Source: Chloroflexota bacterium
Lineage (GTDB): Bacteria; Chloroflexota; Chloroflexia; Thermobaculales; Thermobaculaceae
Length of the DNA: 33,380 nt
Assembly (NCBI GenBank): GCA_902810765.1
Contig: CADDYR010000010.1
Span: forward strand, 1-33,380
Direction: 5' to 3'
The notes under the pieces are model-generated. The model made no database searches, had not been told where the DNA came from, and was given only the letters and a program-made list of their open reading frames with translations. This document shows, one piece after another, positions 17,443 through 28,224 of the stretch; within the stretch, counting starts at the first letter, position 1; the number at the start of each line of letters is the position of its first letter. The position numbers were made by a program, and so were the translations under genes.

Positions 17443-17517
17443 GGCTCCCGCCTCCGCCTCGTATCGCGTCAATGGAGAATATAGCACACTCGGCGCACGA
17501 GCCCGCCCTCCATCGCC

Positions 17518-18945
17518 TCATCCGGAGTGGTGCCGGGCCGGTGTCTTCCCGAAGCCGAGGCTCGCCACGACGAGCAGCGCGCTGATCACCGAGATGACGA
17601 CGGCGATCTGGTGCAGGCCGGAGGTGTCGACGCGCTGGCCGAACAGCACCCCCAGCAGGCTCGTCGAGAGGATGGCGCCGACGTAGCGGAACGTCTGGAA
17701 CAGCCCGCTCGCCGCTCCCATCGCCTCACCCGGCGCGGCCTCGTACAGGGCCGTCTGGAGCCCCAGGTTGTTGAATCCGTTCGGCACCCCCAGCACGGCG
17801 CCCACGGCCAGGATGGCGGGCACGGGAGTGGACGGCCGGAACACGAGCAGGAGCAGCGAGCCCGCGAGCAGCGCCGTCGCCCCTACCACCAGCGCCGGTC
17901 GCGACCCGAACCTGCCCGCGATCCTCGCGGCGAGGGGCGTGACGAACACCCCTATGCCCGCCATCGGCAGCATCATCAGCCCGGCCTGCTCCGAGCCGAA
18001 GCCGTGGGCGCGCTCCAGCCACAGGGGCAGGCTGAAGAACACCGAGTAGAACACGACGTTCACGGCCGCGAACTGCGCGTACACCCAGTCGAGGCGCCGG
18101 TTCGAGGCGAGCATCCGCACGTCGAGGAAGGGGGCCTCCGTCCTCCACTCCCGCACGATCAGCAGGGCTCCCGCAGCGACCGCGACCGGCACGAGCGCGT
18201 AGGCGGGACTCCCTGACAGGGAGAGCAGGAACCCCAGCAGGCCGACGAGCGCTATCGCGAACAGCGCCACTCCCGCCGGGTCCAGGTCGCGGAGCACGGT
18301 TTTCGCGCCCCCTTCCATCCGGTCATCCCAGGGTGCGTCAGGAGGGATCCACCGGAGGGCGAGGGCGAGGCCCGCCGCGGTCACCGGCACGTTCACGACG
18401 AAGATCGCGGGCCATCCTGCGGCGGCGACGAGGAAGCCGCCTATCACCGGCCCGAGCGCGGCGCTGGCGGACGACGCCACGCTCACCGCCCCCAGGGCCG
18501 CGGCCGGAGCGTGTCCCCTCGGGTCGCTCGTGCTCGCGCGGATCAGTGCGAGTCCGGCCGGGAATGCGGCGGAGGTGCCCGCGGCCTGCGCCGCCCGAAG
18601 GACCACGAGCCATCCGAAGCCGGGCACGAACGGAGCGAGCAGCCCCGTGAGCCCCACGATCACCAGCCCCGCGGAGAACACGCGGCGCGCGCCGAATCGG
18701 TCGGCGAGCCTGCCCATCAGAGGCTGCGCTATCGCCGCCGCGATGTAGAAGCCGGAGATCAGCCAGGAGGCGTCCGAGACCCCTATGCCGAACTCGCGGG
18801 TGATCAGGGCGAGCGCGACGGCGATCATCGAGGAGTTGAGAGGGTTGAGCAATGTGCCCGCGGCGACCGCCGCCACCAGCCGGCGCGGAGGGCTGAGGGT
18901 GCGCCGCGGCTCCGTGGTACGCCCTGTCCTGGTCAACGACGGCAC
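17518..18945 (-). CDS. MFS exporter, DHA2 (EmrB/QacA) type
   Basis: A 475-residue membrane protein with about 14 helices, the number for the DHA2 drug:H+ antiporter family. The first helix carries LLNPLNSSMIAVALALI, a DHA2-type motif (usual LDxTIVNVALP). Motif A is present as LMGRLADRFGARRVF in the loop after TM2, and motif C-like GxxxGPxxGG appears as ALGPVIGGFLV. The GTG start follows no strong Shine-Dalgarno. It is divergent from panD with a 94-bp gap. The exported compound is unknown. Confidence 0.88.
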   Translation of the reverse strand: MPSLTRTGRTTEPRRTLSPPRRLVAAVAAGTLLNPLNSSMIAVALALITREFGIGVSDASWLISGFYIAAAIAQPLMGRLADRFGARRVFSAGLVIVGLTGLLAPFVPGFGWLVVLRAAQAAGTSAAFPAGLALIRASTSDPRGHAPAAALGAVSVASSASAALGPVIGGFLVAAAGWPAIFVVNVPVTAAGLALALRWIPPDAPWDDRMEGGAKTVLRDLDPAGVALFAIALVGLLGFLLSLSGSPAYALVPVAVAAGALLIVREWRTEAPFLDVRMLASNRRLDWVYAQFAAVNVVFYSVFFSLPLWLERAHGFGSEQAGLMMLPMAGIGVFVTPLAARIAGRFGSRPALVVGATALLAGSLLLLVFRPSTPVPAILAVGAVLGVPNGFNNLGLQTALYEAAPGEAMGAASGLFQTFRYVGAILSTSLLGVLFGQRVDTSGLHQIAVVISVISALLVVASLGFGKTPARHHSG

Positions 18946-20786: not shown

Positions 20787-21053
20787 GTGATAGCGACCAT
20801 CATCATCTGGATCATCGTGGGCCTGATCGCAGGCGCCCTCGCCAAGCTGATAATGCCGGGGGATGATCCTGGAGGGATCATCGTGACGATCATCATCGGG
20901 CTGATAGGCGCGGTGATAGGGGGCTGGATAATGTCGCTGTTCGGCAAGGCTGGGGCGAACGGTCTGAACGTGTACTCGATCATCGTCTCGATCATCGGGG
21001 CGATAATCCTGCTCGCGCTGTACCGACTGTTCGTCAGCCGCACCGCCCACTGA
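20787..21053 (+). CDS. GlsB/YeaQ/YmgE family membrane protein
   Basis: An 88-residue protein with three predicted membrane helices: MIATIIIWIIVGLIAGALAK, a Gly-rich GIIVTIIIGLIGAVIGGWIM and a C-terminal VYSIIVSIIGAIILLALY. This is the pattern of the transglycosylase-associated (GlsB/YeaQ) stress-related family; its biochemical role is unproven. GTG start with AAGGAGGGGG upstream. It is the first gene in the rightward run that leads into the gas vesicle genes, 60 bp before the first Gln-rich gene. Confidence 0.8.
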   Translation: MIATIIIWIIVGLIAGALAKLIMPGDDPGGIIVTIIIGLIGAVIGGWIMSLFGKAGANGLNVYSIIVSIIGAIILLALYRLFVSRTAH

Positions 21054-21113: not shown

Positions 21114-21662
21114 ATGAGCAACGAGCAGCAAGCTCAGAGCCAGACAGAGGGCTCGCAGCCGACAGGACAGGAGTCCTCCGGCAACGGCCAGGTGCTCGGT
21201 CCCGAGTTCCGGCAGCAGATCGCCCAGGCGGTGCATCCCATCGTCGAGGACATCAGCCGCCAGGTAGCCGACACCGTCCGGCAGCAGATGCAGGAGGCGC
21301 TGTCCCAAACCCAGGAGGACGTGCGCAAGCAGGTTGACCAGGCCATGGGCTCCCAGCGACGGCAGGGAGAGGACTCCCAGGCCGGAGCATCGGGGCAGGC
21401 AGAGGGACAGCAGGGTCCGCTCCAGAGCTCTGTCCTCGAGACCGTCAATCAGCTGAGGCAGACGTTCCAGTCGCTCGTCAGGACGCTGCGCGACCTCCTT
21501 CAGACGGTGCAGTCGCTGTTGCGGGCGGTGGTCTCGCTGCTTCAGGCGCTGCTGACCGCCCTCAGACAGGCTCTGTCGACCGCGGCGGTGGGCCAGAGCC
21601 TAGGGTCCGCGCTGTCAAAGGTGCTGCCGAAGTTGGGGCAGACGGTAGCGCAGGCGCAGTAG
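21114..21662 (+). CDS. Gln-rich accessory protein of gas vesicle cluster, paralogue 1
   Basis: A 182-residue protein starting MSNEQQAQSQTEGSQPTG (disordered, Gln/Ser/Gly-rich). Then comes a helical segment with the motif FRQQIAQAVHPIVEDI and a continuing amphipathic helix. After a second low-complexity linker, a long Leu/Gln/Val-rich helix (SLVRTLRDLLQTVQSLLRAV) could bind a membrane or the hydrophobic vesicle surface. The motif (L/F)xQQ(I/V)AxA(V/M)xP is shared with the genes at 21682 and 22877. ATG 21114 was chosen for its GGAGGAGGA Shine-Dalgarno. No known family recognised; a GvpC-like role is speculative. Confidence 0.7.
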   Translation: MSNEQQAQSQTEGSQPTGQESSGNGQVLGPEFRQQIAQAVHPIVEDISRQVADTVRQQMQEALSQTQEDVRKQVDQAMGSQRRQGEDSQAGASGQAEGQQGPLQSSVLETVNQLRQTFQSLVRTLRDLLQTVQSLLRAVVSLLQALLTALRQALSTAAVGQSLGSALSKVLPKLGQTVAQAQ

Positions 21663-21681
21663 GCACAGGGGAGAGGGCTCG

Positions 21682-22764
21682 ATGACGCGGGGAGAGGGAC
21701 GCTCGGCCCCTCAGACTCAGGGGCGCGATTCGGAGGCAGCCGGCCCGTCCGACCGCCGGATCGGGCCCCAGGAACCCCAGCTCGGCACCGCCCTGCAGCA
21801 GCAGGTCGCGGAGGCAATGGAGCCCGTGCTGTCGGACTTCCGGAGGGAGACGCAGCAAAGGGTTCGGGAGGAGCTGGAGCAGGCGCGCGAGCGCCCTGCG
21901 CAGGGCGTCCAGGACCGGAGACAGGCCGCCCAACCACCCGAGGAGGGTGCGGGCGAGACTGAAGGCGGCCTTGGCGTAGCTCAGACTGCCTTGGCGAAGT
22001 CCAGGGACGTGCTGAGTGGGGGCGAAGGGGTCCTTCAGTCGGTGGTGAGCGGGGGCGTCGAGGCGCTCTTCTCGGATCCCGTGCGCTCCCTGGTCGAGCA
22101 ACAGCTGAGCCTGACGCTCAGAGGGGCTCTACAGGCAGCCATAGACTCCCTCCCCGGCGACTCGGTGGCCCCGGACGTTCGCCGACGGGCCGACGACGCG
22201 CTACGCTCCATCCTGGAGGACACGACCCGCGACCTGTTCGAGGGCCCCGCCCGGGCTGAGGTGCAGGCGCACGCGGAGGCGGCCGCCGGGAGCCTCGCCC
22301 AGGGGGATACCTCGGCGTCACAGCAAGCGGCCGAGCAAGCCATCCAGGCGCTGCTGAAGAGCGTCCTCAGCGCGCTGCGCCGCCATTGGGAGGAGGCGCT
22401 TCGAGTGCTGTTCCGGCTCCTGCTCGAGGGGCTGGAGGGTACGGTCAGGTCCGAGGCCCAGCAGCAGGTGAGCAGGTCGCAGCAGGAGGCGAGGGAGATG
22501 ACAGCCGGCGTCCAGGAGCGTGTGAGGGACAAGGCTGAGGAAGGGCGCCGCAGGATGGAAGACTTCGCGGAGAACCTGAGGGGCAGGGCGGAAGAAGGGC
22601 GTCAACGAGTGGAGGAAGCGACCGGCAAGCTGCGGGACCGCGTCCAGGAGGGCGAGCACTCCGGTACGCGCCCTCTTGGGCGCCCGCCGTCGGGGCGCCC
22701 TCCTTCGGGCAGGCCGCCGAGCGGCCGTCCTCCTGGCAGGCCACCATCGGCGCACAGAAGATAG
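21682..22764 (+). CDS. Gln-rich accessory protein of gas vesicle cluster, paralogue 2
   Basis: A 360-residue protein: disordered N-terminus, then LGTALQQQVAEAMEPVLSDF (the motif shared with its neighbours), a long helical middle with LVEQQLSLTLRGALQAAIDS and ALRRHWEEALRVLFRLLLEG, and near 280-330 apolipoprotein- or LEA-like amphipathic repeats (RDKAEEGRRRMEDFAENLRG, then RAEEGRQRVEEATGKLRD). The last 28 residues are GRPPS repeats ending in SAHRR, basic and proline-rich. The shape suggests a surface-binding or linker protein. Its own Shine-Dalgarno is GGGGAGAGGG. Confidence 0.7.
   Translation: MTRGEGRSAPQTQGRDSEAAGPSDRRIGPQEPQLGTALQQQVAEAMEPVLSDFRRETQQRVREELEQARERPAQGVQDRRQAAQPPEEGAGETEGGLGVAQTALAKSRDVLSGGEGVLQSVVSGGVEALFSDPVRSLVEQQLSLTLRGALQAAIDSLPGDSVAPDVRRRADDALRSILEDTTRDLFEGPARAEVQAHAEAAAGSLAQGDTSASQQAAEQAIQALLKSVLSALRRHWEEALRVLFRLLLEGLEGTVRSEAQQQVSRSQQEAREMTAGVQERVRDKAEEGRRRMEDFAENLRGRAEEGRQRVEEATGKLRDRVQEGEHSGTRPLGRPPSGRPPSGRPPSGRPPGRPPSAHRR
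22678..22761 (+). repeat. GRPPS pentapeptide repeat coding region
   Basis: Three full GRPPS units plus GRPP and GRPPS encode the C-terminal tail of the preceding CDS. The DNA uses varied synonymous codons, so the peptide repeat, not the DNA repeat, seems to be conserved. Confidence 0.7.
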
Positions 22765-22768
22765 CTTC

Positions 22769-22787
22769 CTGGCACAGAAGGTGCCAG
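22769..22787 (+). other. Intercistronic hairpin
   Basis: CTGGCAC-AGAAG-GTGCCAG gives a 7-bp stem and a 5-base loop, just after the stop at 22764. It has no U-run. It may be a weak terminator or processing site separating the second and third accessory genes; the 112-bp gap also holds TATACA near 22851. Confidence 0.5.
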
Positions 22788-22876
22788 TACAGGCGAGAGC
22801 CGGATCGCGCTGATCCCGGATCGGGAGTATGACCGATCAGTGCGTTGGGCTATACACAAACTAGGAGGATCATACC

Positions 22877-23317
22877 GTGAGCGACGAACAGGAACAGCAG
22901 AGCCAATCCGGTGAGGAGCAGCCCCAACCCCAGGAGCAGAGTGGGGAGCAGGGCCAGGCGGAGCAGGCCCAGGGAGGCGAGGGCGAGCAGCCTCAGCAGA
23001 CCCAGGAGCTGAGCAACGCGCTCCAGCAGCAGATCGCGCAGGCGGTCCAGCCGATAATGTCGCAGGTCCAGCAGCAGGTCATCGAGGCAGTGCAGCAGCA
23101 GGTGGATCAGGCGCTCGAGCCGCTGCGAGAGCAGCTCCAGCAGCAGGCGGATCAGGTCCTGGAACCGGTACGTCAGCAGCTCCACCAGCAAGTGGACGAA
23201 TCGCTGGAGCCGCTGCGGGAGCAGTTCCGCAAGGATGTGGACCAGGCAATGGAGCCGGTACGCCAGCAGCTCCATCACGAAGTGGAATCCGCCGTCAAGT
23301 CCTCTTTCCAGCAGTAG
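22877..23317 (+). CDS. Gln-rich 15-residue-repeat protein of gas vesicle cluster, paralogue 3
   Basis: A 146-residue protein. Residues 1-45 are almost entirely Gln, Glu, Ser, Gly and Pro. [20 protein letters not shown] carries the motif common to its paralogues. From about residue 57 the rest is built of 15-residue units such as [15 protein letters not shown] and [16 protein letters not shown] 15-residue, four-turn period is the signature of a right-handed coiled coil. The protein directly precedes gvpA and, like GvpC in other organisms, is a helical repeat protein; it has no GvpC 33-residue repeat. Structural role on the vesicle is inference. GTG start, AGGAGG upstream. Confidence 0.75.
23114..23293 (+). 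repeat. Four tandem 45-bp repeats
   Basis: Units start at 23114, 23159, 23204 and 23249. Units 1 and 3 resemble each other (LEPLREQ) and units 2 and 4 resemble each other (EPVRQQLH), so the array looks like a duplicated 90-bp pair. A diverged unit ([15 protein letters not shown]) lies at 23045-23089. Confidence 0.8.
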
Positions 23318-23323
23318 AGTGCG

Positions 23324-23392
23324 ATGAGCGCTGGTCGGCGGTTCCGAGTCCAGATCGAGAACTACAAGCTTTGGGGAGAGATGCTGCCATGA
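23324..23392 (+). CDS. Candidate 22-residue leader peptide upstream of gvpA
   Basis: ATG at 23324 begins [19 protein letters not shown], then MLP and TGA at 23390, overlapping the gvpA ATG as ATGA. The Shine-Dalgarno is weak. The geometry is that of translational coupling, which could set GvpA synthesis. It may equally be a chance frame in a 71-bp gap. Confidence 0.35.
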
Positions 23393-23859
23393 CTATGTCT
23401 TACAGCAGGGCTCCGGCGCGTGGCGCGCAGGTACAGCGGATGGGAGGCTCCTCGAGCCTCGCGGACGTGCTGAACATAATTTTGGACAAGGGCATCGTAA
23501 TTGATGCCTGGGCGAGGATCTCCGTGATCGGCATCGAGCTGATCACGATCGAGGCGCGGGTGGTCGTGGCCTCGGTCGAGACTTACCTCCAGTACGCCGA
23601 GGCGATCGGCCTCACTGCGCTGGCGGCCCCTCCGCAGGGCGATCAGGGGGGGCAGCAGAGGAAGATGCAACCGTCCGAGGATCGGGTGCTGGCGTACATC
23701 TCTGATCGCTCGGAGGGCGCGCGGCTGGGTGAGCTGGAAGCCTACTTCGACGCATCGCGGGAGGACCTCTCGAACATCCTGAATCAGCTGGCAGACCAGG
23801 GCAAGGTGCGTCGGGACGAGGAGCACAAGCTCTACCTCCCGGCGGGCCAGAAGCAGTAA
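23389..23859 (+). CDS. gvpA: Gas vesicle structural protein GvpA with winged-helix-like extension
   Basis: A 156-residue protein. Residues 21-78 are the canonical GvpA shell fold: [20 protein letters not shown], then [20 protein letters not shown] and [14 protein letters not shown]. GvpA usually ends soon after. Here a linker rich in Gln/Gly leads to residues 97-151, EDRVLAYIS..., with helices [12 protein letters not shown] and [17 protein letters not shown], and a two-strand wing [11 protein letters not shown]. This looks like a winged helix of the DprA-C/MarR sort. ATG 23389 follows GGGGAGAG by eight bases. As the only shell-type GvpA here it should form the ribs, with the extra domain probably facing outward if retained. 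Confidence 0.9.
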
Positions 23860-23904: not shown

Positions 23905-24687
23905 ATGAGTGGAGCTCAGGCGTCCGGGGGCGTGTACATCTACGGTGTCGTGCACCGCGAGCCCTTTCAGGACGGCGACAACTCGCTCGATGTCGCGGCG
24001 GTAGGTGATGGCGGCTCCGCCGTCCGCACGGTGGAGTATCGCGACCTCGCCGCGATAGTCAGCGACTTCCCGGCAGACCGCTGCGACGTCACGCGGGAGA
24101 ACGTCCTGGCGCATCAGCGTGTGCTCGAGCGGGCGATGGAGCGGTCGGACGTGCTCCCCGCGGCCTTCGGTCTTGTGGCCGAGAACGATGCGGACGTGCG
24201 CGAGAAGCTGCTGAGGCCGGAGTTCGAGGACCTGCATCGGGCTCTCGACTCCCTCCGAGGTCGGGTCGAGCTGGAGCTGAAGGTGTTGTGGAACCGCGAG
24301 GCACTCTTCTCGGAGATAGTGGAGGAGAGCGACGAGATCGCGACGTTGCGCGACAGCATCGCTGGGCTCTCCCCCGAGGCGACCTATTACGAGCGGATCA
24401 ACCTCGGCGAGATGGTCGCGGCGGAGATCGACCGCAGGAGCGATCAGGTCGCCGAGGAGGTGCTGGACGCACTCCAGCCGCTCTCGGTTGAGACCAGGCT
24501 CAACGAGAACCTGACCGACATGACGGTCTTGAACGCGTCTTTCCTGGTGGAGAAGAAGGACGTGCCGGACTTCGACGCGCGTGTCCAGGAGCTGGGTGCG
24601 AGGTCTTTGGGCCGTCTCAACTTCCATTACGTAGGCCCACTGCCCCCGTACAGCTTCGTGGACGTGAGCCTTTCTTTGGAGGAATAG
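23905..24687 (+). CDS. gvpF: Gas vesicle protein GvpF/GvpL family, copy 1
   Basis: A 260-residue GvpL_GvpF protein. It begins VYIYGVV, has a central AFGLVAENDADVREKLL and ELKVLWNREALF, and ends in the family signature YVGPLPPYSFVDV. Members nucleate or chaperone GvpA assembly. It follows gvpA by 45 bp with only a weak Shine-Dalgarno. The position after gvpA and before gvpG matches gvpF in actinobacterial clusters. Confidence 0.92.
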   Translation: MSGAQASGGVYIYGVVHREPFQDGDNSLDVAAVGDGGSAVRTVEYRDLAAIVSDFPADRCDVTRENVLAHQRVLERAMERSDVLPAAFGLVAENDADVREKLLRPEFEDLHRALDSLRGRVELELKVLWNREALFSEIVEESDEIATLRDSIAGLSPEATYYERINLGEMVAAEIDRRSDQVAEEVLDALQPLSVETRLNENLTDMTVLNASFLVEKKDVPDFDARVQELGARSLGRLNFHYVGPLPPYSFVDVSLSLEE

Positions 24688-24690
24688 CTC

Positions 24691-24993
24691 TTGGCGTCGC
24701 TGTTGGGGCTGCTGCTATTTCCCGTTACCGGTCCCGCGCACGGGCTCCGGTTCGTGCTGGAGCAGCTTCGCGAGGAGGCCGAGACGGCCCTGTACGACGA
24801 GGGGAGGATTCACTCGGAGCTGGCTCAGCTCAGCACGCTTCGCGACGCGGGGGAGCTGGACGACGAGGAGTATGCCGAGCAGGAAGAGGCCCTCCTGGCA
24901 CGCCTGAACGAGGCGCATGCCGTCCGCGAGTCGCTGTCGGCAGCCGAGGAGTATGACCCTTTGGAAGAGAGTGAGCAGGAGATGGACAGGTGA
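24691..24993 (+). CDS. gvpG: Gas vesicle protein GvpG
   Basis: A 100-residue GvpG. The start LLGLLLFPVTGPAHGLRFVL is the family hallmark, followed by EQLREEAETALYDEGRIHSE and a Glu-rich coiled coil. It is needed for vesicle assembly in organisms tested. TTG start three bases after gvpF, with GGAGG upstream inside gvpF; its stop overlaps the next start (GTGA). Confidence 0.9.
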   Translation: MASLLGLLLFPVTGPAHGLRFVLEQLREEAETALYDEGRIHSELAQLSTLRDAGELDDEEYAEQEEALLARLNEAHAVRESLSAAEEYDPLEESEQEMDR

Positions 24994-25862
24994 CGGACGC
25001 CGATCGCCACGCCCTGCCCGTATCGCACCCGAGCTCCCGCGCCCCTGCGGACACGAGCGAGGCGGGGTGGTACCTGTACGGCGTCACCACCCGTGCCGTC
25101 GCCGAGGCCGTCCCGCCCGCCTCACTGGAGTCATGGGGTGCGGGGCCGGGAGCGCGTCGTGGTGGCCCTCCCGAGTTTCTGGAGTGCGGCGAGCTGGTCG
25201 CCGTGGTCAGGCGGACTGCTACCGACGAGTTCCCCAAGGAGCCGGGAGAGGACGAGGCGCTGGCGGCGCTGGTGAGCGACCACAACTCGGTCGTGGCCGC
25301 AGTCCATAGGGAAGGACCGATCCTGCCCGCGAAGTTCGGGTTGGTGTATGCGGACAGGCGTGATCTCGAGATGGCTCTGGAGCAGATGGAGGACCTGCTC
25401 AGGGACAGGCTCCGGTGGTTGGAGGGGCGCGACGAGTGGGCTGTGCATGTGTACGCTGACCGCCCGGCCGTGCGCGAGAGCCTCGCCGCCACGGACCCTG
25501 ACCTCCGAAGGCTCGGGCAGCAGGTCTCGGCCGCGACGCCGGGCCGTGCCTATCTCCTTGAGCGGAGGCTCTCGGATCGGCTTGACTCGGCCACGCGACA
25601 ACTGCTGGACGAGCTCGCCCAGGCCGCCTACGACCATCTCTCCGAGATCGCGGTGGAGGGCCGGCTGAGCCCGTACCGTCAGGAGACGGAGGAGGCGGAG
25701 GAGATCCTCCGGGCCGCCTTCCTGGTCGACCGCGAGAGCTCGGATCGTTTCCTTCGGGAGCTCGGGACCTTTGCCGACGGCCACGAGCACGTCAGCTGCG
25801 AGTACAGCGGGCCCTGGCCCCCGTACAGCTTCGCACTCGTGAGGGAGGAGGACCTCTCGTGA
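24990..25862 (+). CDS. gvpL: Gas vesicle protein GvpF/GvpL family, copy 2
   Basis: A 290-residue family member with a 25-residue extra N-terminus before WYLYGVTT. Typical blocks are VVAAVHREGPILPAKFGLVY and the final YSGPWPPYSFALV. Linked by GTGA overlaps to gvpG upstream and to the small GvpA-family gene downstream, so it is translated in a fixed ratio with them. F versus L cannot be separated by sequence alone; the symbol is by position. Confidence 0.88.
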   Translation: MTDADRHALPVSHPSSRAPADTSEAGWYLYGVTTRAVAEAVPPASLESWGAGPGARRGGPPEFLECGELVAVVRRTATDEFPKEPGEDEALAALVSDHNSVVAAVHREGPILPAKFGLVYADRRDLEMALEQMEDLLRDRLRWLEGRDEWAVHVYADRPAVRESLAATDPDLRRLGQQVSAATPGRAYLLERRLSDRLDSATRQLLDELAQAAYDHLSEIAVEGRLSPYRQETEEAEEILRAAFLVDRESSDRFLRELGTFADGHEHVSCEYSGPWPPYSFALVREEDLS

Positions 25863-26080
25863 GGACGGCGACGGCAGAGACGACGGACGTGACGCTCCTG
25901 GACCTGTTGGACCGGGTCGTGGACCACGGGGTCGTCCTGGCGGGAGACATCACCATATCGGTCGCCGACGTAGACCTGATATACCTCGGGCTCCGCGCCG
26001 TGCTGACCTCGGTCGAGCGGGCGCGCGAGCTCGACCTGGTGGCGCTCCCGGGGAGCACCGAAGGTGCGCTCGATGCCTGA
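25859..26080 (+). CDS. gvpS: Small GvpA-family protein (GvpS/GvpJ-like)
   Basis: A 73-residue GvpA-superfamily protein: TLLDLLDRVVDHGVVLAGDI, then TISVADVDLIYLGLRAVLTS. The G-D-I/V substitution at the GvpA DAW position is typical of minor homologues GvpJ, GvpM or GvpS, which help initiate or shape the vesicle. Its position between gvpL and gvpF/L-gvpK suits GvpS of actinobacterial clusters. GTG start overlapping the previous stop. The exact symbol is uncertain. Confidence 0.75.
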   Translation: MRTATAETTDVTLLDLLDRVVDHGVVLAGDITISVADVDLIYLGLRAVLTSVERARELDLVALPGSTEGALDA

Positions 26081-26828
26081 GTATCGCTACGTGTACTCCA
26101 TAATGACTCGAGATGCGCCCTTGCTGGAAGGGCTCAAGGGCATAGGCGGTGGGCCTGTGGAGGCGATATGGTGCGGCGCCCTGGCAGCTGCCGTAAGCGC
26201 AGTGGCGCAGCCCGAGATACCTCCGAGCGCGGACAACGTGCTCCGCCACGAGGCAGTCGTGGAGGCGCTGCACCACGGAGGCCCCTCCGTTCCGGTGCGG
26301 TTCGGCACCGTGCTGCCTGACGCGGACGCCGTCAGGAGATCGGTCACGCTACGCCGCGAGCAGCTGATGGAAGATCTCGCGCGGGTGGGTGACAAGCAGG
26401 AGCTGGGCGTTACCGCGCTCTGGGCCGAGCGAGATGAGGGCGACGCTGGCCCGGAGGGCGCTGAGGAGCTGCAGGGACTTGCGTCCGGGACCCGCTACAT
26501 GCTCGCGAGGTTCCGAGAGCACAGGCGCGAGGCCGAGCTACGCGAGAGGGCGGCGGGCATACGGCGCGATATGGACCGCGCTCTCCTGCCGCACGCGCTC
26601 GACGTCAGGAGTCTGGTCCTGCCCTCGCCCGGTATAGCGGTGAGAGCGACCTATCTGATCGAGCCGGGCCGGATCGGGCGCTTCGAGCGAGCCTTCGAGG
26701 AGCTTCGGCTCGGATGCCCGGAGCTGCGCATGCTGCTGACCGGCCCCTGGCCGCCGTACAGCTTCGTGACTCCGTTCCGCGGGCCAGCGCGGGAGGCGGC
26801 TCGACCGGCGGTGTGCGGCTCCGGTTAG
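26073..26828 (+). CDS. Gas vesicle protein GvpF/GvpL family, copy 3
   Basis: A 251-residue GvpL_GvpF protein starting MPEYRYVYSIMTRDAP, with VRFGTVLPDADAVRRSV in the middle and TGPWPPYSFVTPF at the end. ATG 26073 has GAAGG nine bases upstream and overlaps the previous stop by eight bases. Its short N-terminal region and GTRYMLARFREHRREAE segment are diverged from the other two copies, so it is an old paralogue rather than a recent duplicate. Confidence 0.88.
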   Translation: MPEYRYVYSIMTRDAPLLEGLKGIGGGPVEAIWCGALAAAVSAVAQPEIPPSADNVLRHEAVVEALHHGGPSVPVRFGTVLPDADAVRRSVTLRREQLMEDLARVGDKQELGVTALWAERDEGDAGPEGAEELQGLASGTRYMLARFREHRREAELRERAAGIRRDMDRALLPHALDVRSLVLPSPGIAVRATYLIEPGRIGRFERAFEELRLGCPELRMLLTGPWPPYSFVTPFRGPAREAARPAVCGSG

Positions 26829-26855: not shown

Positions 26856-27278
26856 ATGACGAACAAGGATAAGGACACGCGAGCAAACAAGGCCGATCAG
26901 GAGAACCAGAAGCAGGAGGAGCAGAGCGTCCAGCAGAGCGAGCAGGCCGGACAGCCGCAATCGCAGGCACAGCAGGGCCAGCAGCGCGATTCCGGCGAGG
27001 GTCCGAACGGCCAGGAGCGGCCGCTGTGGCCCGAGGCTATATTCGACGCCGGCGCCGCGACCCGTGTCGCGCTGTTGCGGCTTGCCCGGAACTGGCGAGC
27101 CGCCGGCTCGACCTACCAGGCGTTGCGAGCGTATGAGCGGGTCTTGATCCAGTATCAGGGCACCGGGGCGGCGAACGCCGCAGCGGAAGAGCTCATCACC
27201 ATGGCCGACGAACTGGAGAAGGAGGGAAGGTTCTACACGGCCCTGAACATCCTCACCAAGCTGGAGCAGCTCGCGTGA
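26856..27278 (+). CDS. TPR-like protein with Gln-rich N-terminus, gas vesicle cluster
   Basis: A 140-residue protein. Residues 1-60 are charged and Gln-rich (NQKQEEQSVQQSEQAGQPQS), like the heads of the three accessory proteins upstream. Residues 65-140 form paired helices, LLRLARNWRAAGSTYQALRA, then YERVLIQYQGTG, and DELEKEGRFYTALNILTKLE, consistent with about two TPR repeats. It is not GvpO or another Gvp family I know. ATG preceded by GAAGGGGGAG; its stop overlaps gvpK (GTGA), so a role in vesicle assembly is likely. Confidence 0.7.
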   Translation: MTNKDKDTRANKADQENQKQEEQSVQQSEQAGQPQSQAQQGQQRDSGEGPNGQERPLWPEAIFDAGAATRVALLRLARNWRAAGSTYQALRAYERVLIQYQGTGAANAAAEELITMADELEKEGRFYTALNILTKLEQLA

Positions 27279-27724
27279 CGACCGACGGACGGCGGGACAG
27301 GCGGTCTCGAGGTGCGCCGTCGCCGCTGGAGGATCGCGCCAGGGGAGACCTGAGCGCGCTGAGCGACTTCGCCAGGGAGCTCTCGCAGCTCGGATCGCAC
27401 CCCGCCGACAGGCCCCCGCTCGGTTCTATCGAGGGCGGAGGATCTTCAGCGGGAGGTCTCCCCGAGCGACTGAACGCTCGGGAGGACACGGTCGAGCAGG
27501 ACCTGGCGAGGCTCGTGCTGTCCTTGATCGAGCTCGTCCGAAGGCTGCTCGAGAAGCAGGCGATGCGGAGGATGGAGTCCGGGACGCTCAGCGACGACGA
27601 GATCGAGCGGCTGGGTGAGACCTTCCTGAAGCTCGACGCGAGGATGGAAGAGCTCAAGGCCGCGTTCGGCCTCGATGGCGACGACCTCAACCTGAACCTC
27701 GGGCCGCTGGGGGATTTGATGTAG
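27275..27724 (+). CDS. gvpK: Gas vesicle protein GvpK
   Basis: A 149-residue GvpK. The family core is at residues 65-145: VEQDLARLVLSLIELVRRLL, EKQAMRRMESGTLSDDEIER and LGETFLKLDARMEELKAAFG, ending in DLNLNLGPLGDLM. The N-terminal 60 residues are variable and Ser/Gly-rich. GvpK is required for vesicle formation where tested. It is coupled to the TPR-like gene by a GTGA overlap. Confidence 0.93.
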   Translation: MTTDGRRDRRSRGAPSPLEDRARGDLSALSDFARELSQLGSHPADRPPLGSIEGGGSSAGGLPERLNAREDTVEQDLARLVLSLIELVRRLLEKQAMRRMESGTLSDDEIERLGETFLKLDARMEELKAAFGLDGDDLNLNLGPLGDLM

Positions 27725-27756: not shown

Positions 27757-28224
27757 ATGGATATCGAGAGGAGAGATATGAGCGAAGCCGGGGACCGGCA
27801 GATCGCGAGGGCTCCCGAGCGATCCCCGCTATATGGCCGGCGCGTGGCGAGCGCTACCCAGCCCACGAACCTGGCGGACTTGCTCGAGAGGGTGCTGGAC
27901 AAGGGGATCGTCATCGCGGGCGACATCACCCTCTCCTTGGGCACGGTCGATATCCTGACCCTCAAGATACGCCTCCTGATAGCCTCGGTGGACAAGGCTC
28001 AGGAGATCGGGATCAACTGGTGGCAGTCCGACCCGTCGCTCTCGTCGCGTGCCAGGCAGCTGCAAGCCGAGCGCGACGAGCTGAGGGAGCGCGTGGAGAG
28101 CCTCGAGGCCCGGCAGAGGGACGAGCTGGCGGAGCGCATCGAGAGCCTCGAGGCCAGGCTCGCGTCCGGGGATCAGGAGCAGGAGGCCAAGGAGGAGCCG
28201 AAGAGCCGCCGCAGGCGAAGGTGA
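27757..28224 (+). CDS. gvpJ: Gas vesicle protein GvpJ with repeated coiled-coil tail
   Basis: A 155-residue GvpA-superfamily protein. Its core at about 38-90, TNLADLLERVLDKGIVIAGD and then ITLSLGTVDILTLKIRLLIA, is typical GvpJ. The tail contains two 15-residue units, DELRERVESLEARQR and DELAERIESLEARLA, and ends in SRRRRR. The start may instead be ATG 27778, which has AGAGGAGAG just upstream. Last gene of the cluster. Confidence 0.88.
   Translation: MDIERRDMSEAGDRQIARAPERSPLYGRRVASATQPTNLADLLERVLDKGIVIAGDITLSLGTVDILTLKIRLLIASVDKAQEIGINWWQSDPSLSSRARQLQAERDELRERVESLEARQRDELAERIESLEARLASGDQEQEAKEEPKSRRRRR
28075..28164 (+). repeat. Two tandem 45-bp repeats in gvpJ
   Basis: Units at 28075-28119 and 28120-28164 encode 15-residue coiled-coil units. 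The same unit length occurs in the Gln-rich gene at 22877. Confidence 0.7.

Follow-up and report, generated by a model that had tools for sequence, protein, structure and literature searches.

Three related proteins encoded directly before gvpA in a Chloroflexota gas-vesicle cluster are candidates for an outer coat or linker

Among the proteins of gas vesicles, only GvpA and GvpC have clearly defined roles (PMC11445434). GvpC binds the outer side of the vesicle shell (PMC9994262), its binding relies on arginine, leucine and phenylalanine (PMC10903477), and through it the stiffness of vesicles and their acoustic response can be adjusted. Each GvpA takes up 12.1-12.7 Å of the shell and two subunits 24.2-25.4 Å; for a GvpC repeat the compared values are 49.5 and 50.8 Å (PMC9994262). 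GvpC is a single protein encoded between gvpA and gvpN, and its long amphipathic helix has a repeat period of 33 residues in cyanobacteria and 32-38 in haloarchaea. A second described system is that of GvpU and GvpT of Bacillus megaterium. Both lie outside the core set of proteins; they are reported to work together with a lengthened GvpA C-terminus and, according to the same review, are exclusive to Bacillota (PMC10903477). In Bacillus vesicles an additional surface density may be the C-terminus of GvpA (PMC10185304).

We analyzed a stretch of 33,380 nucleotides from a Chloroflexota bacterium (GCA_902810765.1, contig CADDYR010000010.1), hereafter the window, which carries a gvp cluster on the plus strand. 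Its gvpA (23389-23859; PF00741, 5.1e-15; PDB matches 8gbs and 7r1c) encodes a long C-terminal extension. It is followed by gvpF (23905-24687; PF06386, 5.4e-74), gvpG (24691-24993; PF05120), a second gvpF/L family copy (24990-25862; PF06386), a gvpS-like GvpA homologue (25859-26080; PF00741), a third gvpF/L family copy (26064-26828; PF06386), an uncharacterized gene, gvpK (27275-27724; PF05121, 2.4e-32) and a gvpJ-like GvpA homologue (27757-28224; PF00741) whose top NCBIfam match, GvpJ, fell below cut-off. The uncharacterized gene (26856-27278) encodes a small helical protein that has a Gln-rich head, lacks a Pfam match and is conserved in this type of cluster; its orthologues in genomes G028, G172, G427, G230, G307 and G433 cover most such clusters and their nearest relatives. 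By eye the protein, whose gene follows the third gvpF/L copy and precedes gvpK, recalls TPR repeats.

Directly before gvpA, three open reading frames follow one another on the same strand: P1 (21114-21662, 182 residues), P2 (21682-22764, 360 residues) and P3 (22877-23317, 146 residues, GTG start). The gaps are 19 nt between P1 and P2, 112 nt between P2 and P3, and 71 nt between P3 and gvpA. A preliminary description of this DNA had named three Gln-rich paralogues in a row here, and the reading frames are present where it placed them. The GC content at codon positions 1/2/3 supports coding (P3, at 0.85/0.27/0.83, resembles the gvp genes), a Shine-Dalgarno-like sequence precedes P1, with its ribosome-binding site, and P3, and orthologues are conserved. 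With these results, we conclude that P1-P3 are real genes. The description as Gln-rich suits P3 (30% glutamine) and P1 (20%), but P2 (9%) scarcely fits it. Just 5' of P1, a gene (20787-21053) encodes a small membrane protein that belongs to the transglycosylase-associated family; G028 had no such protein in the vicinity of its P genes.

The preliminary description had also quoted a motif of the type (L/F)xQQ(I/V)AxA(V/M)xP(I/V) in all three proteins and, separately, 15-residue repeats in P3. The motif occurs once each in P1, P2 and P3 and the repeats are present too, but the two are not distinct features, because the repeat array of P3 opens with the motif. The shared unit is a 15-residue module of the form LxQQVxxALxPVRxx, found in about six copies in P3, in one to three clear copies in P1 depending on the orthologue, and in one copy in P2. 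Motif scans and HMM cross-matches against shuffles placed it at residues 32-47 of P1 (21207-21254, plus strand; FRQQIAQAVHPIVEDI) and residues 38-53 of P2 (21793-21840, plus strand; LQQQVAEAMEPVLSDF). Outside P1-P3, the strict motif was absent from 1.39 million residues of six-frame ORFs drawn from about 57 loci, nearly all of them gvp loci. In G172, a further copy (LKEELTAAMEPVAQEF) was seen at L058:5112-6272, in the same frame as the small conserved protein before gvpK, and at L058:7172-7837, on the minus strand, a module behind a disordered head is fused to an ABM-like domain (PF03992; the match, E 0.012, misses the cut-off).

When HMMs of the three families were scored against one another, almost every member exceeded each of the 200 composition shuffles, the exceptions being G172a_P2 and G172c_P2 (the latter without the motif), and the cross-family alignments fell on the motif. 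Composition shuffles are a generous control, because helical periodicity is lost on shuffling. Stronger evidence of kinship came from the family profiles, which retrieved the same proteins from 12,908 ORFs, and from the profile comparison of P3 with P1 (probability 98.7%, E 1.6e-16). P1-P3 could be assigned to no Pfam, NCBIfam or PHROGs family. Weak matches to apolipoprotein, FANCI, phasin and arcadin models were below cut-off and were dismissed, since such matches are typical of amphipathic or low-complexity helices. We read P1, P2 and P3 as a new accessory-protein family of gas-vesicle clusters, a known kind of system.

Beyond the module, the three proteins differ. P1 has a disordered Gln-rich head, one clear module with degenerate copies, and then a Leu-rich hydrophobic Leu/Gln helix (about residues 103-160; 21420-21593, plus strand). 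The Kyte-Doolittle maximum of this helix over 19 residues is 1.62 in the window; in two orthologues it reaches 2.84 and 2.54, which is strongly hydrophobic. P2 has a head with one module, a helical domain, an amphipathic helix and a tail of GRPPS repeats. Its helical region (residues 95-326; 21964-22659, plus strand) was modeled by AlphaFold2 with a pLDDT of about 70-88 from residue 121 and lower before it, and a fold search of the model against the PDB gave non-significant matches alone (helical bundles and BAR domains) and no recognized fold. The GRPPS tail (22672-22764, plus strand), which the preliminary description had pointed out, is indeed present and is kept in the G028 orthologue; similar tails occur in G172b and in an additional G331 protein.

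P3 has a disordered Gln-rich head and then a rod of 15-residue repeats (residues 49-141; 23021-23299, plus strand) that starts with the shared module. The period of 15 had a z of 10.7 and stood 9-11 SD over shuffles in all four orthologues tested. Hydrophobic residues recur at a regular spacing of 3.75-3.77 residues per turn, arginine is found in most repeats, and phenylalanine is absent from the pattern. AlphaFold2 predicted a single helix of 107 residues (39-145) after the disordered head, and a fold search with this model gave zero matches. A periodicity of 15/4 fits right-handed coiled coils.

Orthologues of all three proteins were found in four other genomes (G028, G172, G331 and G427). 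P1 and P2 lie within gvp clusters in all five genomes, which represent four families, and P3 does so in four of the five; in G427, P3 sits on a short contig that carries no gvp genes and ends at the P3 side. Linkage to gvp genes is nearly exclusive. Co-occurrence with gvp genes had been set beforehand as a test, and it was borne out: a P2 profile made from two sequences and searched against 400 genomes of the phylum yielded new strong matches in G172, G331 and G427, all three of them inside gvp clusters. The positions of the P genes relative to the gvp genes differ between genomes. In G028, P1-P3 keep the order that they have in the window but are placed after gvpJ, and G172 has extra copies of P2.

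Because 54 of the 400 genomes carry gvpK, most gvp clusters do without the P family; absences in the phylum searches are soft, since few candidates per genome (the best five or the best seven) were first scored. Two other P2-profile matches were rejected as low complexity, one in G053 (E 1.9e-4), a 1213-residue frame apart from the gvp contigs, and one in G281 (E 7.9e-4), a genome without a gvpA-family match in which the tail alone was covered. Scans of genome contigs with P3, both as a single sequence and as an alignment, gave no matches, Gln-rich repeats being ill-suited to the method. Plasmid records held no relatives of P2 or P3, and among open-licence papers none combined gas vesicles with Sphaerobacter or Thermomicrobia.

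The gvpF tree, built from 54 loci, grouped all five clusters with P genes in one clade (95/90) and placed G230 as its sister (99/99). A gvpK tree, which was short and had a bootstrap that was not settled, did not recover the P-bearing clade. The gene order in G230 is a gvpA with a short tail, a gene for a protein with 33-residue periodicity, and gvpN, whereas the retrieved stretches of the five P-bearing clusters had neither gvpN nor a protein of this period beside gvpA. A PF01304 search of 55 gvp-bearing genomes found nothing. This result does not equal the absence of GvpC, because GvpC-like proteins with a period of 33 were found later, by position and periodicity, directly 3' of gvpA at eight loci (L145:5413-6552, L031:14532-16073, L043:12095-13447, L040:15142-17124, L109:16561-17667, L110:14252-15673, L113:8430-9224 and L035:6371-7168). 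The G230 protein, the only one tested, was missed by the Pfam GvpC model and had no Pfam match. The clusters at L081, L083 and L089-L096 have neither a recognizable GvpC-like protein nor P proteins, and from these other clusters of the phylum it follows that the absence of GvpC needs no replacement. Further, because the P set is one clade, the associations described here may reflect a single evolutionary event.

The C-terminal extension of GvpA in the window bears a winged-helix domain (23668-23844, plus strand), which matched EutK_C (3.2e-5) and MarR_2 (8.8e-5), both below cut-off, and weakly matched PDB entries 4hob and 4wcg. Of the five genomes with P genes, four (the window, G028, G172 and, in one copy, G331) have the winged helix at the C-terminus of one GvpA; the GvpA of G427 and the second G331 copy have Gln-rich tails in its place. 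The two gvpA genes of G331 (L059:11368-11889 and 17472-18083) thus encode one winged-helix tail and one Gln/Pro-rich tail. In G230, G395, G016, G008 and G446, the winged helix caps the C-terminus of the GvpC-like proteins, so that the domain is on GvpA in P-bearing clusters and on the GvpC-like protein in their sister. The GvpA tail and the GvpC-like C-terminus matched each other by hhalign (96.3%, E 1.7e-9), and the winged-helix loci are L026, L058, L059, L145, L109, L043, L031 and L110. GvpA tails of at least 70 residues were present in all five P-bearing genomes and at one of the 25 other loci where gvpA was in view, an association with a p-value of about 4e-5 when calculated by hand with the loci taken as independent, although the P set is one clade.

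Since GvpC binds the shell exterior and the Bacillus surface density may be a GvpA C-terminus, the winged helix probably faces outward whether it is carried by GvpA or by the GvpC-like proteins. The microcompartment shell protein EutK likewise has a C-terminal winged helix on an organelle shell protein. The organelle and the shell fold are different, however, and the Pfam and PDB matches are weak and below curated cut-off. Among open-licence papers, none clearly dealt with a winged helix in either GvpA or GvpC, and it is a puzzle why a gas vesicle would display a domain whose fold commonly serves nucleic-acid binding.

By sequence, P1-P3 lie outside the GvpC family. PF01304 and PF05465 did not match them (for P1 and P3, among the best 25 families listed), whereas real GvpCs, used as positive controls, matched their Pfam families at 7.5e-48 and 7e-41. 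P3 has a period of 15 and Nostoc GvpC one of 33 (z 14.7), and hhalign comparisons of P3 and P2 with GvpC or GvpC-like proteins gave a probability of about 0.1%. The place of the genes is different as well, upstream of gvpA in the window and after gvpJ in G028, with three paralogues and no gvpN. The likeness to GvpC is one of kind: P3 is an amphipathic helical repeat protein beside gvpA, its predicted helix at residues 39-145 is long with a strong hydrophobic periodicity, and both P3 and haloarchaeal GvpC weakly match the apolipoprotein model. The GvpC-like proteins of the phylum are also accessory proteins beside gvpA and carry the winged helix found here on GvpA, but they differ from P3 and P2 in their 33-residue period, in having gvpN next and in the 0.1% comparison. 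We also considered GvpQ (NF041670), for which the scores of the three proteins were 22.5, 16.7 and 11.3 bits, with a cut-off of 100 bits. The match at 22.5 bits, to P2 residues 258-328, did not involve the motif, and P2 was rejected as a GvpQ because the score is far below cut-off and likely reflects a generic amphipathic helix.

Taken together, the best-supported role of P1-P3 is that of an external coat or linker in place of GvpC, a role that we hold to be about evenly balanced between right and wrong. Each P protein carries the 15-residue amphipathic helical module at least once, after a disordered head; P3 strings together about six of them into a rod, and P1 and P2 combine one or a few with other domains. 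The proteins would lie on the vesicle exterior, probably touching the extended GvpA tails and one another through the shared units, and the resulting helical outer layer would stiffen the shell or link vesicles. This layer would occupy the place that GvpC has in the sister clusters. The outside location, the binding partners and the coat or linker function are all inferred. In favor are the linkage to gvp clusters over four families, the P3-P1 profile match with the shuffle control, the single gvpF clade, the lack of GvpN and GvpC-like proteins in the P set, the placement of the winged helix, the long GvpA tails in five of five genomes and the predicted 107-residue helix of P3. Bacillus also offers a precedent for accessory proteins that act on a long GvpA C-terminus (PMC10903477). 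Against it stand the descent of the P set as one clade, the clusters that lack GvpC without having P proteins, the disagreement of the gvpK tree, the G427 P3 contig, the softness of the phylum-search absences, and the hydrophobic segments of some P1 proteins, which could mean membrane or assembly roles. Somewhat less probable, and tentative, is a specific history in which the coat arose independently of GvpC, with the module single on P1 and P2 and serial on P3, then replaced the GvpC coat while the winged helix moved to GvpA.

A serious rival, although on balance doubtful, is that the P proteins cluster or organize vesicles, or tether them elsewhere, through the elongated GvpA tail in the manner reported for GvpU and GvpT (PMC10903477; PMC11445434). 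The association with long GvpA tails, including the Gln-rich ones of G427 and one G331 copy, would suit such a role, as would the Gln-rich disordered heads and the hydrophobic P1 segments. The tail association could, however, be a single inheritance, no GvpU or GvpT model was among the NCBIfam or Pfam matches of P1-P3, and both proteins are restricted to Bacillota in the review cited above.

The preliminary description had regarded the three proteins as possible GvpC replacements. Replacement in the broad sense agrees with P-bearing clusters that lack GvpC-like proteins and GvpN, a sister that has both, and a winged helix found here on GvpA; the literal role of GvpC fares worse. In that role, which we consider unlikely, P3 would follow the ribs formed by GvpA, its hydrophobic face resting against helix alpha-2, and would increase the collapse pressure. 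P3 does have a long amphipathic repeat helix with regular hydrophobic spacing and usually an arginine in each repeat, and P clusters have no GvpC-like genes. But one repeat rises 15 x 1.5 = 22.5 Å, which is 7-11% under the 24.2-25.4 Å of two GvpA subunits (PMC9994262), and the hydrophobic stripe twists by 60 degrees per 15 residues in P3 and per 33 in GvpC. This misfit to whole subunits and the steep twist weaken rib-wrapping. The periodicity of 3.75-3.77 residues per turn favors right-handed coiled-coil self-association instead, phenylalanine is absent from the repeats (compare PMC10903477), and there is no homology to GvpC.

It is similarly improbable that the P proteins are assembly factors that the finished vesicle lacks, for example chaperones or proteins for nucleation or the tip. 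The operon-like placement with gvpF, G, L, S, K and J, the hydrophobic P1 helix and the weak P2 similarity to the Bacillus GvpQ model could be read in this way. Yet gvpF/L, G, K, S and J are already in the clusters, the GvpQ match resembles chance matches of amphipathic helices, and P genes vary in number and position and are absent from most clusters, unlike core assembly factors. That P1-P3 are chance neighbors unrelated to gas vesicles is very improbable, for the contig of the G427 P3 is set against P1 and P2 linked to gvp genes at differing positions in five genomes of four families.

If P1-P3 do form an external coat or linker, they would represent a second way of building or linking the outer layer of a gas vesicle, in a lineage without a recognizable GvpC gene. 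They would then also provide a new engineering part and a natural test of the purposes for which GvpC is required.
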